DNA of 64,000 bases from Prochlorococcus sp. AG-347-J19. Its GTDB lineage: Bacteria; Cyanobacteriota; Cyanobacteriia; PCC-6307; Cyanobiaceae. The notes beneath the pieces were generated by a model. That model worked only from the letters and a program-made list of their open reading frames with translations, did no database searches and had not been told where the DNA came from. A program made the translations under genes and the position numbers. Below, one piece after another: positions 19,790 to 52,487 of the stretch (its first letter is position 1; every line of letters starts with the position of its first letter). The stretch covers positions 143,155 to 207,154 of the forward strand of contig QCBV01000002.1 of the NCBI GenBank assembly GCA_003279015.1. The letters are read 5' to 3'.

Positions 19790-19903
19790 TTATTTAGTTT
19801 TTATTTTTTTCTTAATTCTCAGAAAACCGTAAGTTGCAAAGCCAACTAAAAACATATCCAAGTAAATATGCCAAGTAGGAAAAATTTGGTGTATTAATTC
19901 CAT
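19790..19903 (-). CDS. 37-aa membrane microprotein coupled to the ligase-like gene
   Basis: 37 aa (starts MELIHQIFPTWHIYL) with one hydrophobic segment (about residues 13-28) and a lysine-rich cytosolic-looking tail (RIKKKIKTK). Its ATG shares one base with the TAA of the ligase-like gene (TAATG), a classic coupling arrangement. Not recognised; too short for most gene finders. Confidence 0.6.
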   Translation of the reverse strand: MELIHQIFPTWHIYLDMFLVGFATYGFLRIKKKIKTK

Positions 19904-20652
19904 TAGCGTTTTATTGCCACTTGCCAATAAGGATAATCTAAATTTGATTTTTCTCTAATCAATTGTAATTTTCTAGAATTTATTTTTACTACTATTCCAT
20001 CTGTTGGATATTTACTAAAAAGCTTCCCTTCTAGCCATTGTTTTCTAAATACTCCAACTTGGCTCGTAAAGTTGCATGAAATGTCTTGAGGGATCGTGAA
20101 GCCAAGTTTTGAAAGGCTCTTTTTGGACTCATATTGGTTAAGTAATGAATTAAGTATTTGAAATGCGCAGAAGCTAAGACTTTCAGAAAATCCTTCTTTA
20201 GCTCTTAGAAATCCAGAAGCGATTCTCTGGGAGATATTTGGACTTTGGTTGGGTGCATATAATTCACCTCTAACTTGCAGCACGCCTCGAAGAGGGAGAT
20301 TATTGGGAATGTCTTGGACTTTAATAAGTTTACTAGTAACGTCTGCCCCTTTTCTTGAAATTGCTTTCTCCAAGGTTCCATCCCTATATTGCAAAGCAAC
20401 AGCACAACCATCAATTTTTGGTTCAATTAATAATCTGGTATCTACTAATAATCCTTTCAAAAATTCATCTATTGAATCCTTTTCTAATGAAGGTAAAATT
20501 AGTTTATTTTTCTTTTTAAAGTAATCACAATTAGGGTTTGTTCTTAATAAATTTTTTTCAAGTTGGTCGAACTGCTTATCAGAGATTAAAGCATTACCAT
20601 TTCTATAATTATCGTCATACCATTCAATTCGTTCTTCTAAATAAGTCTTCAT
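19903..20652 (-). CDS. Stand-alone NAD-dependent DNA ligase adenylation domain (LigA-like)
   Basis: 249 aa, about a third of a normal LigA (about 670 aa). It has the end of the Ia region (YDDNYRNGNALISDKQFDQL) and a full set of nucleotidyltransferase motifs: the lysine motif EPKIDGCAVAL, RKGADVT, LQVRGELY, PTDGIVVKIN and the closing YWQVAIKR. It then stops, so the OB fold, zinc finger, HhH and BRCT domains are absent. The active-site lysine is present, so self-adenylation from NAD is plausible, but sealing activity is not. It has a membrane-protein gene immediately on each side. Not a decayed gene: the motifs are intact and the junctions are tight. Confidence 0.85.
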   Translation of the reverse strand: MKTYLEERIEWYDDNYRNGNALISDKQFDQLEKNLLRTNPNCDYFKKKNKLILPSLEKDSIDEFLKGLLVDTRLLIEPKIDGCAVALQYRDGTLEKAISRKGADVTSKLIKVQDIPNNLPLRGVLQVRGELYAPNQSPNISQRIASGFLRAKEGFSESLSFCAFQILNSLLNQYESKKSLSKLGFTIPQDISCNFTSQVGVFRKQWLEGKLFSKYPTDGIVVKINSRKLQLIREKSNLDYPYWQVAIKR

Positions 20653-20859
20653 TTAATAAGATGGCTTAAGTTTTTGGTCAGGCATCCAACTTGGTTTATC
20701 TATAATCCATTTTCCTCTATCTTCATATTTAACAGTCCATAAAAGAAATGAAGAAATTTCTTTTAGAGTTGTGCCAACCAAATATCTTGTTTTTGGACTT
20801 ATTGATATAAATCCAAATAATAATATTAATAAAATAAGTTTAAACATACCTTTAATCAT
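20653..20859 (-). CDS. 68-aa membrane protein upstream of the ligase-like gene
   Basis: 68 aa with an N-terminal hydrophobic segment (about residues 5-20, LILLILLFGFISI), then a soluble tail with two WxxD-like stretches (KWIIDKPSWMPDQ). The stop directly abuts the ATG of the ligase-like gene with no spacer. A second ATG four codons in is an alternative start. Not recognised. Confidence 0.65.
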   Translation of the reverse strand: MIKGMFKLILLILLFGFISISPKTRYLVGTTLKEISSFLLWTVKYEDRGKWIIDKPSWMPDQKLKPSY

Positions 20860-20890
20860 TTAAAAAATCAGCGTAATTGTTGCGAACTTT

Positions 20891-21148
20891 TTAATTAATG
20901 CAATTCTTATAACCTTCAATCTTTGCTAGTTCATCAATATTCAAACCTGTTTCTTCTAGTAGAGTTTCTCCTATATCGTCCTTATTAAATTTAGTTAAAG
21001 CTCCTTTAGTAGAGTACTTAATACATTGGTTTTTGTATTTTGCTTCTTTGATAACAGGAGATAAATAAAAACCAAACAAGATGATAAAAGCCCCATAGGT
21101 TACAACTTTTCTATGGTTTTTCCACCATTCATAAAATTTATTGGACAC
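20891..21148 (-). CDS. 85-aa membrane protein with PVIKxAKxKxxC motif
   Basis: 85 aa, GTG start. One transmembrane segment (about 16-32) is followed by SPVIKEAKYKNQC and a soluble tail ending in KNCIN. The protein at 57722-58159 carries the same membrane-plus-motif layout (YPVIKHAKNKLDC), so the two define a small family. Function unknown. It lies 31 bases upstream of the 68-aa gene and may head the ligase-like operon. Confidence 0.65.
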   Translation of the reverse strand: MSNKFYEWWKNHRKVVTYGAFIILFGFYLSPVIKEAKYKNQCIKYSTKGALTKFNKDDIGETLLEETGLNIDELAKIEGYKNCIN

Positions 21149-47374: not shown

Positions 47375-49861
47375 TTAATCACTATATTTTTTTATAAGTT
47401 TTTCTACTCTTTTTTCTATTGGTTCATTGCTTAAAGTATTTTTAAGTCTTTCAACTAATAAAGGGAAAGCAAAAGGCGTTGGAGTTTTTATCTCGTTTAA
47501 TATAATTTTTAAATTTTTTAATCTTTCTAATGATCTAGATATTCTTTTATTTTCTAATTGATATTCTTTAACTTCTTGATGCGATTGTTTTATCAAAAGA
47601 TGGCCTTCTTCATATTTAGTAAAGACATCGTAGAAAAGACTTGAACTTATTTGAAGTTGAGAGGAGGTTTTTGTTTTGGTTGGATTATTTTGATTTACAA
47701 GTCCACTTATTTGGGCAATATTTTTAAATCTACGTTTTGTTAATTCTGAAAAATTAATTGCATTTTCTAGATCTTCTTCTAATTTTTTGTTATTCAAAAA
47801 GTAATCAGCTTCTTTTTTTATTATGGAAAAATCATAATCTTCTGCGGTAGTTAAGCTGAATCCAAAATCATTAGCAGTAATACTAAATGTAGATTGTTTT
47901 AATTTTGCCAATCTCAAAGCCCATAAAAATGCAATTCCTTCATTTACAAATTTGCCATCAAGTGTAAAAACAAAAAGATTTGATAAATCTTTGGTTTTAT
48001 ATATTTCTATGAGGAATTCATCTTTCTTTGGAATATTTGAAAGAACTTTTTGTTTATTCAATATTGGTCGTAATGAATTGAGTTCAGGATTTAAGTAATC
48101 ATAATTTTCTAGTTCGTTGCATATATCTATTTCATTTCTCAAACTCTCACAAAGTAGATCAGAAATTGCCATTTGACCTCCAACCCATGCAGGAATTAGA
48201 GAACTTTTTTTTGTTGATTTCTTAACGTATAAGATCATATCTCTTATTCTTACAAATTGAAGCATTTTGCCAGCAAAGTAAAATGTATCTCCAGGATTTA
48301 ATTTTGAAGCAAAATTCTCCTCTAAATTACCTAAAGATTTACCTTTCATATATTTGACATTCACAAATTTGTCACTTGTAATTGTCCCAATATTGAACTT
48401 ATGCATTCTTATTAAAGATTTGTCTTTTACAAAATATTTAAAGTTTTCATTATTATTTTGTGATTCCTCTTTAATTATCTTTTTATATTTTGGGTATGCT
48501 TTAAGACATTTTCCTCCATATTCTAAAAAGTCAAGACACCAATTCCAATCTTGATCTTTTAATTTTCTATAACTCCAGCAATTTTTAATTCTTTCTTTCT
48601 CAATTTTTGGATCAAAGCCATTTCCGCATGCCAGACTTATTAGATGTTGTAGAAGCACATCATAAGATAATTCGGGAAGTCTAATTTCCTCAGATATACC
48701 ACTTTTTATTATTCTTCTCATTGCACTAATCTCTAATAACTCTAAAGAATTAGTAGGCATAAAAATTATTTTTGATTTTCCACCTGGTCTATGAGCACTT
48801 CTTCCAGCTCTTTGTATGAGTCTAGCTAAATTCTTTGCACTACCAATTTGAACTATTTGATCTACAGGTTGGAAGTCAACTCCTAAATCTAACGAGCTGG
48901 TGCAGACTACCCATTTTATTAGTCCGTCTTTAACACCTTCTTCAACTCTTTTTCTATCTTCTTTATCCAGGGAGCCGTGATGAAGTGCAATTTTGTCTTG
49001 CATCTCTGGGAGAAAAAATTTAAGACATTGATACCATCTTTCAGATTGATTTCTCGTATTGGTGAATAATAAGGTGCTTTTATTTTTATCCAGGATTTTT
49101 AATAGTGAAGAATGACTTCTAATGCCAAGATGCCCACTCCATGGAAAGGTAGTTTCCTCCTCTGGTAAAACACTTATAATTTCGATCTCTTTTTGAATAT
49201 TTGTACTTATAATTTTGGGTTTAATAGCGCTCATTCCAACTATTGCTCTTGCTGCTTCTTCAATATTTCCAATAGTTGCAGACATTGCCCAAATTTGTAA
49301 ATTTTTTATATTACCTCTTAGCCAACTTAAAGATAACTCGCACTGGTTTCCTCTTTTACTACCCATTAATTCATGCCATTCGTCAATAATTATTGATGAC
49401 AACTCCTTGAACAGATTATTAGATTCTTTATTAGAAAGTAAAAGAGATAAAGACTCTGGAGTTGTAATAAGAATATTGGGTGGTTTAGCAAGTTGCTTTT
49501 TCTTTTCATATGGGGTTGTATCCCCATTCCTAATTTCAACAGTGATTTCTTTATTAAAATGCAAAGCTGCTAATTGTATGGAATTTTTTAGATCTCTACT
49601 TAGTGCTTTTAAAGGGGTTATTAATAATATATTCACACTTTTATTATTTTTGGGATCATCTATCTTTGATAGAGGTCCCATTAATGCAGCATAAGTTTTG
49701 CCGCATCCAGTAGGAACTTGTATTATTCCACTTTCTCCATTTAAAAATGCTTCCCAAGATTCGATCTGATAAGGTAGTGGCTCCCATCCATTTGTGAAGA
49801 AAAACTGTTTAATTTTAGAAATTAAATTATTTTGCTTATTATTTTTCGTAATATTTTTCAT
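47375..49861 (-). CDS. lhr: Ligase-associated Lhr-type DNA helicase
   Basis: 828 aa, full length for the ligase-associated branch. Helicase motif I GCGKTYAALM, motif II DEWHELMG, SATIGN (motif III), motif VI QRAGRSAHRPGG; the middle has an Lhr winged-helix region and a long C-terminal DUF4175-like core. It would unwind DNA or DNA/RNA duplexes at breaks. It overlaps the ligase stop by four bases. Confidence 0.94.
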   Translation of the reverse strand: MKNITKNNKQNNLISKIKQFFFTNGWEPLPYQIESWEAFLNGESGIIQVPTGCGKTYAALMGPLSKIDDPKNNKSVNILLITPLKALSRDLKNSIQLAALHFNKEITVEIRNGDTTPYEKKKQLAKPPNILITTPESLSLLLSNKESNNLFKELSSIIIDEWHELMGSKRGNQCELSLSWLRGNIKNLQIWAMSATIGNIEEAARAIVGMSAIKPKIISTNIQKEIEIISVLPEEETTFPWSGHLGIRSHSSLLKILDKNKSTLLFTNTRNQSERWYQCLKFFLPEMQDKIALHHGSLDKEDRKRVEEGVKDGLIKWVVCTSSLDLGVDFQPVDQIVQIGSAKNLARLIQRAGRSAHRPGGKSKIIFMPTNSLELLEISAMRRIIKSGISEEIRLPELSYDVLLQHLISLACGNGFDPKIEKERIKNCWSYRKLKDQDWNWCLDFLEYGGKCLKAYPKYKKIIKEESQNNNENFKYFVKDKSLIRMHKFNIGTITSDKFVNVKYMKGKSLGNLEENFASKLNPGDTFYFAGKMLQFVRIRDMILYVKKSTKKSSLIPAWVGGQMAISDLLCESLRNEIDICNELENYDYLNPELNSLRPILNKQKVLSNIPKKDEFLIEIYKTKDLSNLFVFTLDGKFVNEGIAFLWALRLAKLKQSTFSITANDFGFSLTTAEDYDFSIIKKEADYFLNNKKLEEDLENAINFSELTKRRFKNIAQISGLVNQNNPTKTKTSSQLQISSSLFYDVFTKYEEGHLLIKQSHQEVKEYQLENKRISRSLERLKNLKIILNEIKTPTPFAFPLLVERLKNTLSNEPIEKRVEKLIKKYSD

Positions 49862-51498
49862 GATATTTTTTTCATTAGTTCATAAGCATTCTCTAGGCTA
49901 TCTGCATCATTAATTTTTTTATCTTTTCTCCATTTCGTTATTCTTGGGAATCGTACTGCTATGCCTGACTTATGACGTTTAGAAATTTGTATTTTCTCAA
50001 AAGATATTTCGAATACCATTTCTGGTTTTAAAGAACGAACAGGACCAAATTTTTCTATTGTATTTTTTCTTATCCATTTATCTAGCTCCTTAATCTCAAT
50101 ATTCGTTAAACCAGAATATGCACTTGCAAATTTAATTAATTCTTTGTCTTTCCATAATGCAAAACTGTAATCTGTGTACAGACCAGCTCTTCTACCGCTA
50201 CCGCCCTTAGCGTAAATTAGAACAGCATCCAGTTGCATAGGATCAACTTTATATTTCCACCAAATACCTTTCTTTCTACCGGATGAGTATATAGAAGACT
50301 TTTTCTTAATTATTAATCCTTCAGTATTATTTTCTCGAGATTTTTCTTTATAAGTTAAAGCATCAGGCCAATCTTTAGGAAAAATTAAATCACATATTTT
50401 GAAAATATCAGAGATATTATTCTCAGTTTTAATTTGCCATTTTGAAAAATATTTTTCTAACTTAATTCTTCTATTTTCTAATTTAATTTCTCTTATATCT
50501 CTCCCATTAATCTCTAAAAGATCATAAGCAATAAAAATAATTGGATATTTTATTTGGATTGATCTAGTAGGAGACTTTCTATTTATTCTTTTTTGAAGTA
50601 AAGAAAAATCAAAGGGAATTTGTTCTTTAAAATTCCAAACTAATAATTCCCCATCAAGAACAAAATTATCTTTTATATGAAACATTTTCTCTGCTAATTC
50701 TGGGAAAGACTCATTTACTAATTCTTGCCCTCTTGTCCATAACGAAATATTGCCTGACCTTTTAATTAATTGCATCCTTATACCGTCGTATTTCCATTCA
50801 AATTGAAAATCATTTATTGAATTTTTGAAGATTTTATCTTCAATAGTATTTGCTAGAAGAAATGGAAATGGTTTGGAATTTAACTCTTGAAGATTGATAT
50901 TCTTGTTAATTAAAAATTCATATGATTCAATTGAAGGTTTAAAATCACCCATCAACCTATGAGAAATAATCTCTTCCTCAATATTAATTAGTTTTGATAT
51001 TGATTTTGTGATTAATCCGATAGAGACTCCTACTCTAAAAGTTCCTGTAAGAATTTTATTAAAAATTAGATGGTTATCTTCAGGTAATGTTTCCCAAAGA
51101 TTTTTAATTTCTAAATTTTTCTCCTCCTCATTAAGTTTTGATAATGCAGGTATCGTTTCGCTTAGTAATTCATTGAGACTTATATTTGATAATTTCTTTT
51201 TTCTGGAATTAGTTTTATTTTTAAGTAATAAAGTTATCACCTCAGCAGAATCACCAACTTTTAAATAACATGTATCAATTAACCATTGAGGATATTCATA
51301 TATTTGAGAAAAAAGATTTTTTAGATATCTTCCACTAATAAATCTCTTATTACTTTTTCCAGTTAGTAAGTATATTGCCCATGAATTATCTATTGGATCA
51401 TTAGATAAAAAATAATTCCTTAAAACTTCAATTTTATTATTTGTACTATTAATTGAATCTAGATCACCAAATAATTCTGAAAACTTTTTTAAGCTCAT
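49858..51498 (-). CDS. lig: ATP-dependent DNA ligase, repair cassette
   Basis: 546 aa. N-terminal DNA-binding domain, adenylation domain with the lysine motif FEWKYDGIRMQLI (KxDG), LDGELLVW, and the OB domain with the terminal motif RFPRITKWRKDK. It is separate from the NAD-type replicative LigA of cyanobacteria and from the LigA-like fragment at 19903. In the cassette it seals breaks processed by PdeM, Lhr and the exonuclease. Confidence 0.95.
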   Translation of the reverse strand: MSLKKFSELFGDLDSINSTNNKIEVLRNYFLSNDPIDNSWAIYLLTGKSNKRFISGRYLKNLFSQIYEYPQWLIDTCYLKVGDSAEVITLLLKNKTNSRKKKLSNISLNELLSETIPALSKLNEEEKNLEIKNLWETLPEDNHLIFNKILTGTFRVGVSIGLITKSISKLINIEEEIISHRLMGDFKPSIESYEFLINKNINLQELNSKPFPFLLANTIEDKIFKNSINDFQFEWKYDGIRMQLIKRSGNISLWTRGQELVNESFPELAEKMFHIKDNFVLDGELLVWNFKEQIPFDFSLLQKRINRKSPTRSIQIKYPIIFIAYDLLEINGRDIREIKLENRRIKLEKYFSKWQIKTENNISDIFKICDLIFPKDWPDALTYKEKSRENNTEGLIIKKKSSIYSSGRKKGIWWKYKVDPMQLDAVLIYAKGGSGRRAGLYTDYSFALWKDKELIKFASAYSGLTNIEIKELDKWIRKNTIEKFGPVRSLKPEMVFEISFEKIQISKRHKSGIAVRFPRITKWRKDKKINDADSLENAYELMKKIS

Positions 51499-51500
51499 AT

Positions 51501-52487
51501 TTATTTACCGAATGAAAGGACATTTATTGATTCCTTTTCAACTAAATATTTACTTAAGGCTTCACTATCTCCATGATGAAAAAATACATTTTTTGCTTCA
51601 GACTTTTTTACTACTTCCAGAATTCCATCCCAATCCGCATGATCAGAGATTGCGAATCCTTTATCATATCCTGATCTTTTTCTTAGAGCTCTTATTGACA
51701 TCCAACCACTCGCGAAAGCTGTTTGAATGTTTTTGAAATTTTTTAAATAAGAACCCTTACTTAAAGATGGTGGTAATAATATTAGACTTCCTTTAAGTTC
51801 ATCTATCTTTTTTTTATTTTCAATTTTTATAGTATCTTTAATATCAATTCCAAGTTCCCTATAACTATTGTTCATTTTGTGAATACTGCCATGGGAATAA
51901 ATATTGCCTTTAAAACTTGTTTGACTAATTTCGTTTAACAATCTCTGAGCTTTTCCAAGTGAATAGCAGAAAAGTAAAGAAGTTTTTTCTGGTGAATTAG
52001 TTATCCATTTTGAAATATCATTTGCTATTTTATTTGATTCATCCCACTTAAATATTGGCAAACCAAAAGTACATTCGCTTATTAAATAATCAGTTTTTAC
52101 TATTTCATATTGTTTGCAAGTTTGATCTTTTTGAAGCTTAAAGTCACCTGAAATTAGCCATTTTTCTTCAGCAAAAATAAACCTTATTTGACTAGATCCA
52201 AGGATGTGACCGGATGGATGAAAAGAAATATTAATGCCATTTATCTTAAATTCTTCTCCATATTCAAAAGTCTTAATTTTTATATTATCTCTAACTCTTT
52301 CTTTAAGAAGTATCGCAGTTTCCTTAGTAGAAATGTATTCTTCACAGCCAAATGTAAAGTGATCAAAATGAGCATGAGTTATTAATGCCTTTTTTACTGG
52401 CTTATTTGGATCAATCCAAATATCAGCAAGTTCACAATAAAGATTCCCATCTTCATATCTAATTAAATATTCTTGTTTAGTTCTCAA
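51501..52487 (-). CDS. exo: Ligase-associated MBL-fold exonuclease
   Basis: 328 aa, TTG start (no nearby ATG). The metallo-beta-lactamase metal site is THAHFDHFTFG, with HPSGHILGSSQI, ISGDFKL and FFHHGD completing the fold; the LISECTFGLP and DHADWDG motifs match the mRNA 3'-end-processing-factor-like exonuclease of the ligase cassette. First gene of the four-gene cassette; two bases before lig. Confidence 0.9.
   Translation of the reverse strand: MRTKQEYLIRYEDGNLYCELADIWIDPNKPVKKALITHAHFDHFTFGCEEYISTKETAILLKERVRDNIKIKTFEYGEEFKINGINISFHPSGHILGSSQIRFIFAEEKWLISGDFKLQKDQTCKQYEIVKTDYLISECTFGLPIFKWDESNKIANDISKWITNSPEKTSLLFCYSLGKAQRLLNEISQTSFKGNIYSHGSIHKMNNSYRELGIDIKDTIKIENKKKIDELKGSLILLPPSLSKGSYLKNFKNIQTAFASGWMSIRALRKRSGYDKGFAISDHADWDGILEVVKKSEAKNVFFHHGDSEALSKYLVEKESINVLSFGK

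Follow-up and report, generated by a model that had tools for sequence, protein, structure and literature searches.

LigA, the DNA ligase that uses nicotinamide adenine dinucleotide (NAD), combines an adenylation domain (PF01653) with an OB domain (PF03120) and with zinc, HhH and BRCT parts. In the heterodimeric NAD ligases of phages T5 and PR1 the nucleotidyltransferase (NTase) is phage-borne in a gene of its own, with the OB domain (PF03120) retained in subunit A and the HhH/BRCT parts in subunit B. A single ligase domain as a separate phage gene is also described, in PMC7824862, for cyanophage-type jumbo phages, where the alpha-helical part of ATP ligases that binds DNA stands alone and is proposed to recruit a host ligase. 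Here we describe a gene for a 249-amino acid (aa) protein in a 64,000-nucleotide (nt) stretch of the genome of Prochlorococcus sp. AG-347-J19 (hereafter the window), and the family to which it belongs. Unlike the jumbo-phage domain, this protein corresponds to the catalytic part of an NAD ligase and not to the DNA-binding part of an ATP ligase. It shares domain Ia, the NTase fold and motifs I, III, IV and V with LigA, but the OB, zinc, HhH and BRCT parts are missing, domain Ia is shortened, an arginine is replaced by Gln142 and the family forms a separate clade. It likewise resembles the T5/PR1 type in having the NTase in its own gene, but differs from it in that no OB domain was found for the family in the loci searched.

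On the basis of these sequence comparisons, OB-less NAD-ligase adenylation domains are a family of their own, apart from LigA. Our preferred explanation for the window copy, with a probability of roughly 0.47, is that it is a phage- or satellite-derived, lineage-captured adenylyltransferase, for which we predict that Lys79 accepts AMP from NAD+ and that the AMP is passed on to nucleic-acid 5' ends. The copy would likely have been captured in the Prochlorococcus lineage from a virus-like or integrase-bearing element; the loading of Lys79 from NAD+ is predicted to be followed by transfer to 5' ends met in recombination or repair, with the DNA clamp either supplied by a partner or dispensable. 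In step 1 of NAD-type ligases it is domain Ia, and not the OB domain, that orients the leaving group, according to PMC6698739, and so the missing OB domain should not bar charging from NAD+. Nucleic-acid ends are proposed as the acceptor from the company of the gene only, that is, because recombinases, nucleases and helicases are among its neighbours. Which way the gene was transferred, its activity in vivo, its use of NAD+ over ATP and this acceptor are inferences. A bolder version, in which a minimal OB-less NAD+-dependent adenylyltransferase is a distinct kind of recombination enzyme of phages and satellites that caps or joins DNA or RNA 5' ends together with a site-specific recombinase, and has become a core gene of high-light Prochlorococcus, itself without LigA, is rather unlikely. 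If the preferred explanation is correct, a nucleic-acid ligase-type enzyme works without the OB clamp held necessary for sealing, has travelled with viruses and integrative elements and persists in one of the dominant photosynthetic lineages of the sea, and Okazaki-fragment sealing in the LigA-less cells of the genus becomes a directly testable question. The adenylation domain itself is known; the literature searched (open-licence PubMed Central) yielded no virus- or element-borne OB-less family that a free-living bacterium retains, and no description of the family, of its coupling to recombinases or of the NTase as a component of tycheposons or satellites.

PF01653 was the single Pfam match of the 249-aa protein (E 1.7e-18; score 67.5 bits, cut-off 27), with none for the zinc, HhH or BRCT parts. 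The motif residues K79, D81, G82, E130, D218, K223, W243 and K248 are all present, and domain Ia, the part that confers NAD+ specificity on LigA, is shortened to approximately residues 1-50 and keeps Y16, D25 and D29. The best matches of the AlphaFold model (predicted local distance difference test score, pLDDT, of 87.6) were LigA adenylation domains, and the PR1 structures 9hu3 and 9i5i matched it as well. The first-pass annotation, made from the letters of the window, had described a stand-alone LigA-type adenylation domain with intact motifs that ends just after the last of them and lacks the OB, zinc, HhH and BRCT parts. Each of these points was borne out, and we refine the description by placing the KxDG lysine at residue 79 and by recognizing the protein as a shortened domain Ia plus an NTase domain. 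A profile search that covered the window, the flanks fetched for 47 viral loci and the Prochlorococcus-group loci detected no LigA-type OB domain; the controls, three held-out LigAs (one near-identical to training rows) and a T5-type subunit A, were recovered at 146, 145 and 90 bits and at 63 bits, respectively. An OB partner encoded nearby was considered and rejected on this result. Genome-wide, PF03120 alone was searched, and it was absent from the source genome (G000). There was also no match to an HhH/BRCT partner subunit among the ten window open reading frames (ORFs) scanned, and none to the PADLOC models of known anti-phage defence systems, from a library dating from 2023, for nine proteins.

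The separation from LigA was apparent in a midpoint-rooted tree of 90 rows, in which the T5 row consisted of the first 250 residues and one viral row cut at a contig end (L188) was excluded. LigA formed one clade (100/96), and LigA and the T5 row stood apart from the stand-alone proteins (95/90). The window type was a five-row clade (100/97) within a 22-row group (99/94) that also holds five viruses, recombinase-coupled copies and the copy of a genome that we take to be MED4. The nearest row outside the window-type clade was L283, which is recombinase-coupled at a tRNA-Ser gene, although this join is weak (80/33). With long branches at some of the tips and a root placed at the midpoint, the tree gives the direction of transfer by inference only.

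Fifty-eight window-type loci, together with the window, made up 59 rows, and K79, D81, E130, D218, K223 and K248 were kept in all 59. It is important to note that the search pattern favored K79 and D81, and therefore E130, D218, K223 and K248 are the fairer test of conservation. Across the wider family, motif I (K, D and G) was kept in every row scored outside a degenerate low-light (LL) group, and most rows scored keep the other NTase motifs and the shortened domain Ia. The ratio of nonsynonymous to synonymous substitution rates (dN/dS), calculated for sets of at most 40 rows from which rows of unequal length had been removed, was 0.196 for the window-type NTase (39 rows) and 0.117 for purK (40 rows, as for each small gene discussed below). 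Purifying selection acts on the window-type copy.

The genus of the window is largely without LigA. Among 101 sampled genus genomes, 30 of them at least 90% complete, PF01653 matched in 93 and full-length LigA was present in four; PF03120 was found in the same four and in none of the 30. With the window protein as the query, matches were obtained in 86 of 87 near-complete genus genomes, and the window-type copy (at least 83% identity, counted by eye) was open in 69 of them, with no internal stop in any. Its open state in 69 of 87 genomes and its constant gene order in 59 of 59 rows demonstrate that the 249-aa ORF is not a chance frame. The family search gave matches in 147 of 151 genomes, and among the matches listed nearly all members of other genera have a full LigA. 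Extra stand-alone copies were identified in g35, two g32 genomes, one g9 genome and two g27 genomes, and extra family-search matches, outside the stand-alone count, in G155 and G176. LigA and stand-alone copies occur together in g35 genomes and, among the four genus genomes with LigA, in G078 and G089. The group g35 is probably LLI, with lengths and positions that fit NATL2A. For NATL2A, two short 'DNA ligase' genes are listed at places matching the g35 copies in PMC6102989. A 249-aa relative in MIT 9312 is named 'NAD-dependent DNA ligase' in a database, a name that the OB-less stand-alone family explains. The genome G185, presumably MIT 9312, showed short PF01653 matches only.

A further stand-alone copy, of about the same length, is present in the source genome (L089:4884-5633 (+), G000:C3:97883-98629) and adjoins a photolyase-type FAD (flavin adenine dinucleotide) gene (PF03441) and a gene that by eye is short-chain dehydrogenase/reductase-like. 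Copies of this second type (~50% identity) are listed for most of the 87 near-complete genomes; the motifs were read in three rows, where the motif IV Asp is replaced by Asn and the motif V Lys by Gln or Glu, with both intact in L095.

A first scan of IMG/VR, with the window protein as the sole query, gave no match, and a second, with a 15-row alignment, gave 57 loci. Ten of these were removed prior to counting: L217 and L221-L225, which have ORFs of at least 664 aa, L226, which has no matching ORF, and L218-L220, which have 308-aa ORFs at 29% identity. The remaining 47 contigs carry the stand-alone family; the ORF is 239-289 aa long in 46 of them and is truncated by the contig end in the other. 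A gene of PHROG 1924, annotated as 'minor tail protein', lies directly upstream of the NTase on the same strand in 40 of the 47 loci, at a gap of -17 to 125 nt, and the family is present in 45 of the 47 maps; the maps also contain a VapE-type helicase (31), VRR-NUC (28) and a helicase (23). In INPHARED there were 143 and 67 matching records, all below 60% identity, with at most 31.1% and 28.4% among the matches listed. The model of the PHROG 1924 neighbor is of medium confidence (pLDDT 76.9), and its fold had no PDB match at E<=0.001. As a separate observation, the PHROG 1924 gene of loci L175-L214 (e.g., L178:7176-7949 +) sits in a neighborhood of DNA metabolism, and its 'tail' label may be wrong.

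In picocyanobacteria the family is also coupled to tyrosine recombinases. The NTase start overlaps the recombinase stop by 1-4 nt in 18 of 83 rows. With rows that repeat a place pooled, and two mirror-image copies on one contig counted as one, these rows represent 14 distinct loci. The coupled recombinases belong to two types, with ORFs of 381-422 aa in 12 loci and pieces in two (L087 and L291). A position at tRNA-Ser is seen for three of the 14 loci, and one at tRNA-Pro for L098, where the recombinase is a piece; a tRNA gene is at the edge in L093, L098, L283 and others, and the NTase copy of presumed MED4 is at tRNA-Ser without a recombinase. These mobile relatives thus share a tyrosine recombinase, and in part a tRNA-gene context, with tycheposons and phage-satellite-like elements, and element genes (an HK97-type capsid-protease, VapE, DUF3987 and an excisionase-like helix-turn-helix protein) are found near single family copies. 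Unlike tycheposons, the window copy has no adjacent recombinase or tRNA, and there is no tRNA gene in the window.

Several of the coupled loci have features of their own. In L080, from a Prochlorococcus-genus genome, a gene in which an HK97-type prohead protease and a capsid protein are fused (L080:2596-4227 (+)) adjoins the NTase-integrase pair (L080:4882-6869 (-)), which suggests a capsid-encoding satellite or prophage. In L283:4557-8230 (+) the order is tRNA-Ser, recombinase, NTase and, last, a 484-aa ORF, by eye type I DNA methylase-like; this element may carry restriction-modification cargo. On contig G096:C15 (L086, L296 and L297) two equal-scoring recombinase-NTase copies are mirrored at the ends of 18 kb with tRNA-Ser, as either a real inverted repeat or an assembly effect. 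Lastly, a 79-aa ORF at G039:C1:1000188-1000367, directly behind an integrase match, matches only NTase residues 1-60, and the same short match was seen in G262, G260 and G234.

The packing of the window NTase between small genes was as the first-pass annotation had described it (Table 1): its ATG directly adjoins the TAA of the 68-aa ORF, the junction of its TAA with the ATG of the 37-aa gene reads TAATGG, and the 85-aa gene lies upstream. This four-gene order was constant in all 59 rows, and, by our reading of the matches, the 85-aa gene is beside the NTase in all 69 genomes with a window-type copy. That annotation had also designated the three small products as membrane proteins, which we retain for the 68- and 85-aa proteins; the relatives of the 37-aa product are weakly hydrophobic (best 19-residue mean 1.13), and its label is therefore uncertain.

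Table 1. Positions in the window of the stand-alone NTase gene, its motifs and the adjoining small genes
Feature	Position	Strand	Basis
Stand-alone NAD-ligase adenylation protein, 249 aa (short domain Ia + nucleotidyltransferase)	19903..20652	-	Pfam, model, motif alignment
Motif I, K79-I-D-G82, adenylation lysine (codons 79-82)	20407..20418	-	Motif alignment
Motif IV, D218-G-I-V-V-K223	19984..20001	-	Motif alignment
Motif V, W243 to K248; frame stops one residue on, no OB domain after	19909..19926	-	Motif alignment, OB profile
68-aa small membrane-protein gene, abuts NTase start; dN/dS 0.40	20653..20859	-	ORF calls, locus comparison
85-aa small membrane-protein gene, GTG start, upstream; dN/dS 0.131	20891..21148	-	ORF calls, locus comparison
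37-aa small gene, its ATG overlapping the NTase stop by one base; dN/dS 0.088	19790..19903	-	Locus comparison

Elsewhere the small genes and the NTase were found together and apart. A relative of the 68-aa gene (70%) is in the syntenic island of the genome that we take to be MED4, with no NTase there, and relatives of the 85-aa gene lie away from any listed NTase in eight genomes without a window-type NTase, namely those presumed to be MED4 and MIT 9515, and G025, G095, G258, G266, G268 and G270. Outside the window type, the 85-aa gene was found in one of the Prochlorococcus-group loci searched (L105, 0.8 kb off the NTase), and no relative of the 85-, 68- or 37-aa gene was found in the 47 viral loci. 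Among the loci searched the 37-aa gene was found only behind NTases: it is missing behind the 81-83% identical copies L281 and L282, and a relative (72% over 32 aa) at L315:5190-5303 (+) starts on the last base (TAATG) of a 62%-identical NTase (L315:4438-5190) that lies outside the window-type clade. Hydrophobic small ORFs overlap or abut the NTase stop in L088, L097 and L108, and for 30 of 73 NTases the next ORF follows within 60 nt, with six of those scoring as a membrane segment. Genes for SRAP proteins were noted near the NTase in three loci: L105:4229-4867 and L106:5675-6313 (both PF02586) and, by similarity, L107:3179-3823.

Several observations weigh against a captured enzyme that adenylates nucleic-acid ends, and they bear on its rivals as well. 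In domain Ia, R17 and F28 stand where LigA has Tyr in the rows compared, and Gln (Q142) takes the place of an Arg invariant in LigA almost throughout the OB-less family; these changes could mean a changed or lost reaction. Furthermore, D218 and K248 are missing from two of the three rows scored for the second copy type, the KxDG motif of several LL copies has its Lys but no longer its Asp, and K223 is Thr or Gln in VapE-element and Synechococcus-type copies. Full catalysis is therefore not required of every retained member. Such losses, with a degenerate paralogue in the same genome of a type listed in most genomes, are what would be expected of a domain that binds NAD+ or AMP as a sensor or decoy without transfer. 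We nevertheless consider such a role very improbable for the window-type copy, in which none of the 59 rows has lost a scored catalytic residue. The remaining difficulties concern mobility, in addition to the weak join of L283: a listed NTase match lies beside only five of the 18 strongest recombinase matches in the genus, a recombinase was found in one of the 47 viral loci (L174), 4.9 kb away, and none was found with two profiles at the 58 window-type loci or in the window. The first two of these counts tell equally against a helper of the recombinase, an NTase that adenylylates the integrase or attachment-site (att) DNA via NAD+ and so controls excision of the element, with the resident copies as leftovers under host control. 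The start/stop overlap with two recombinase types in 14 loci, and the tRNA-Ser and tRNA-Pro positions described above, are in its favor; to our knowledge, however, tyrosine recombinases need neither a ligase nor an adenylyl donor, and this role is distinctly unlikely.

A split ligase, in which the catalytic half seals nicks with a separate DNA-binding partner that differs by setting (in viruses the adjacent PHROG 1924 product, in the host another protein), would account for the position of the PHROG 1924 gene directly upstream in most viral loci, and the T5-type phages and the PR1 heterodimer 9hu3 demonstrate that NAD ligases can be split. However, T5 subunit A retains its OB domain, so there is no precedent for an OB-less split, the proposed partner is annotated as a minor tail protein with a model that has no PDB match, and no PHROG 1924 gene was noticed beside the Prochlorococcus copies, where no dedicated search was made. 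On balance we regard a split ligase as unlikely. The first-pass annotation had favored a membrane system, in which the NTase and the 85-, 68- and 37-aa proteins adenylylate a membrane-linked target. The part of this proposal that stands is the constancy of the order in 59 of 59 rows, with low dN/dS for the 85- and 37-aa genes (Table 1) and a 37-aa relative at L315; that relative and the hydrophobic ORFs at L088, L097 and L108 led us to raise its probability slightly and to lower that of the captured adenylyltransferase from 0.50 to 0.47. The part that is weakened is the exclusive association, given that the 68-aa gene in the presumed MED4 island has no NTase there and the 85-aa relatives in eight genomes lie away from listed NTases, that the 37-aa gene is missing behind L281 and L282, that a membrane-type next ORF was seen at six of 73 NTases, and that neighbors constant beside the window type have no relatives at the 47 viral loci. 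A membrane system is thus quite improbable. Decay from a lost LigA, which had been allowed for at the outset, would be in keeping with a LigA-like domain in a genus that largely lost LigA. It is contradicted by the position of cyanobacterial LigA elsewhere in the tree, by purifying selection (dN/dS 0.196) with catalytic residues kept in 59 of 59 rows and no internal stops in 69 genomes, and by the coexistence of LigA and stand-alone copies in g35, G078 and G089. The tree position, the dN/dS and the unbroken frames refute a LigA fragment for as long as the tree holds up, and we give it next to no weight.

ATP-dependent ligases may be relevant to the cells without LigA. A match was present in 96 of the 101 genus genomes, with two types (~546 and 440-450 aa) among the matches listed. 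The 442-aa ligase of the source genome (L078:4651-5979 (-)) aligns with the solved structure of Pmar-Lig (6rau) across residues 2-442 (961.6 bits). Pmar-Lig is described, in PMC6698739, as additional to the replicative NAD enzyme; we consider the 442-aa type a candidate for the replicative ligase of cells that have no LigA. The 546-aa type is encoded in the window (49858-51498 (-)), flanked by 47375-49861 and 51501-52487, in a row with genes that by eye are helicase-like and nuclease-like, and G042 shows the 445-aa type only.
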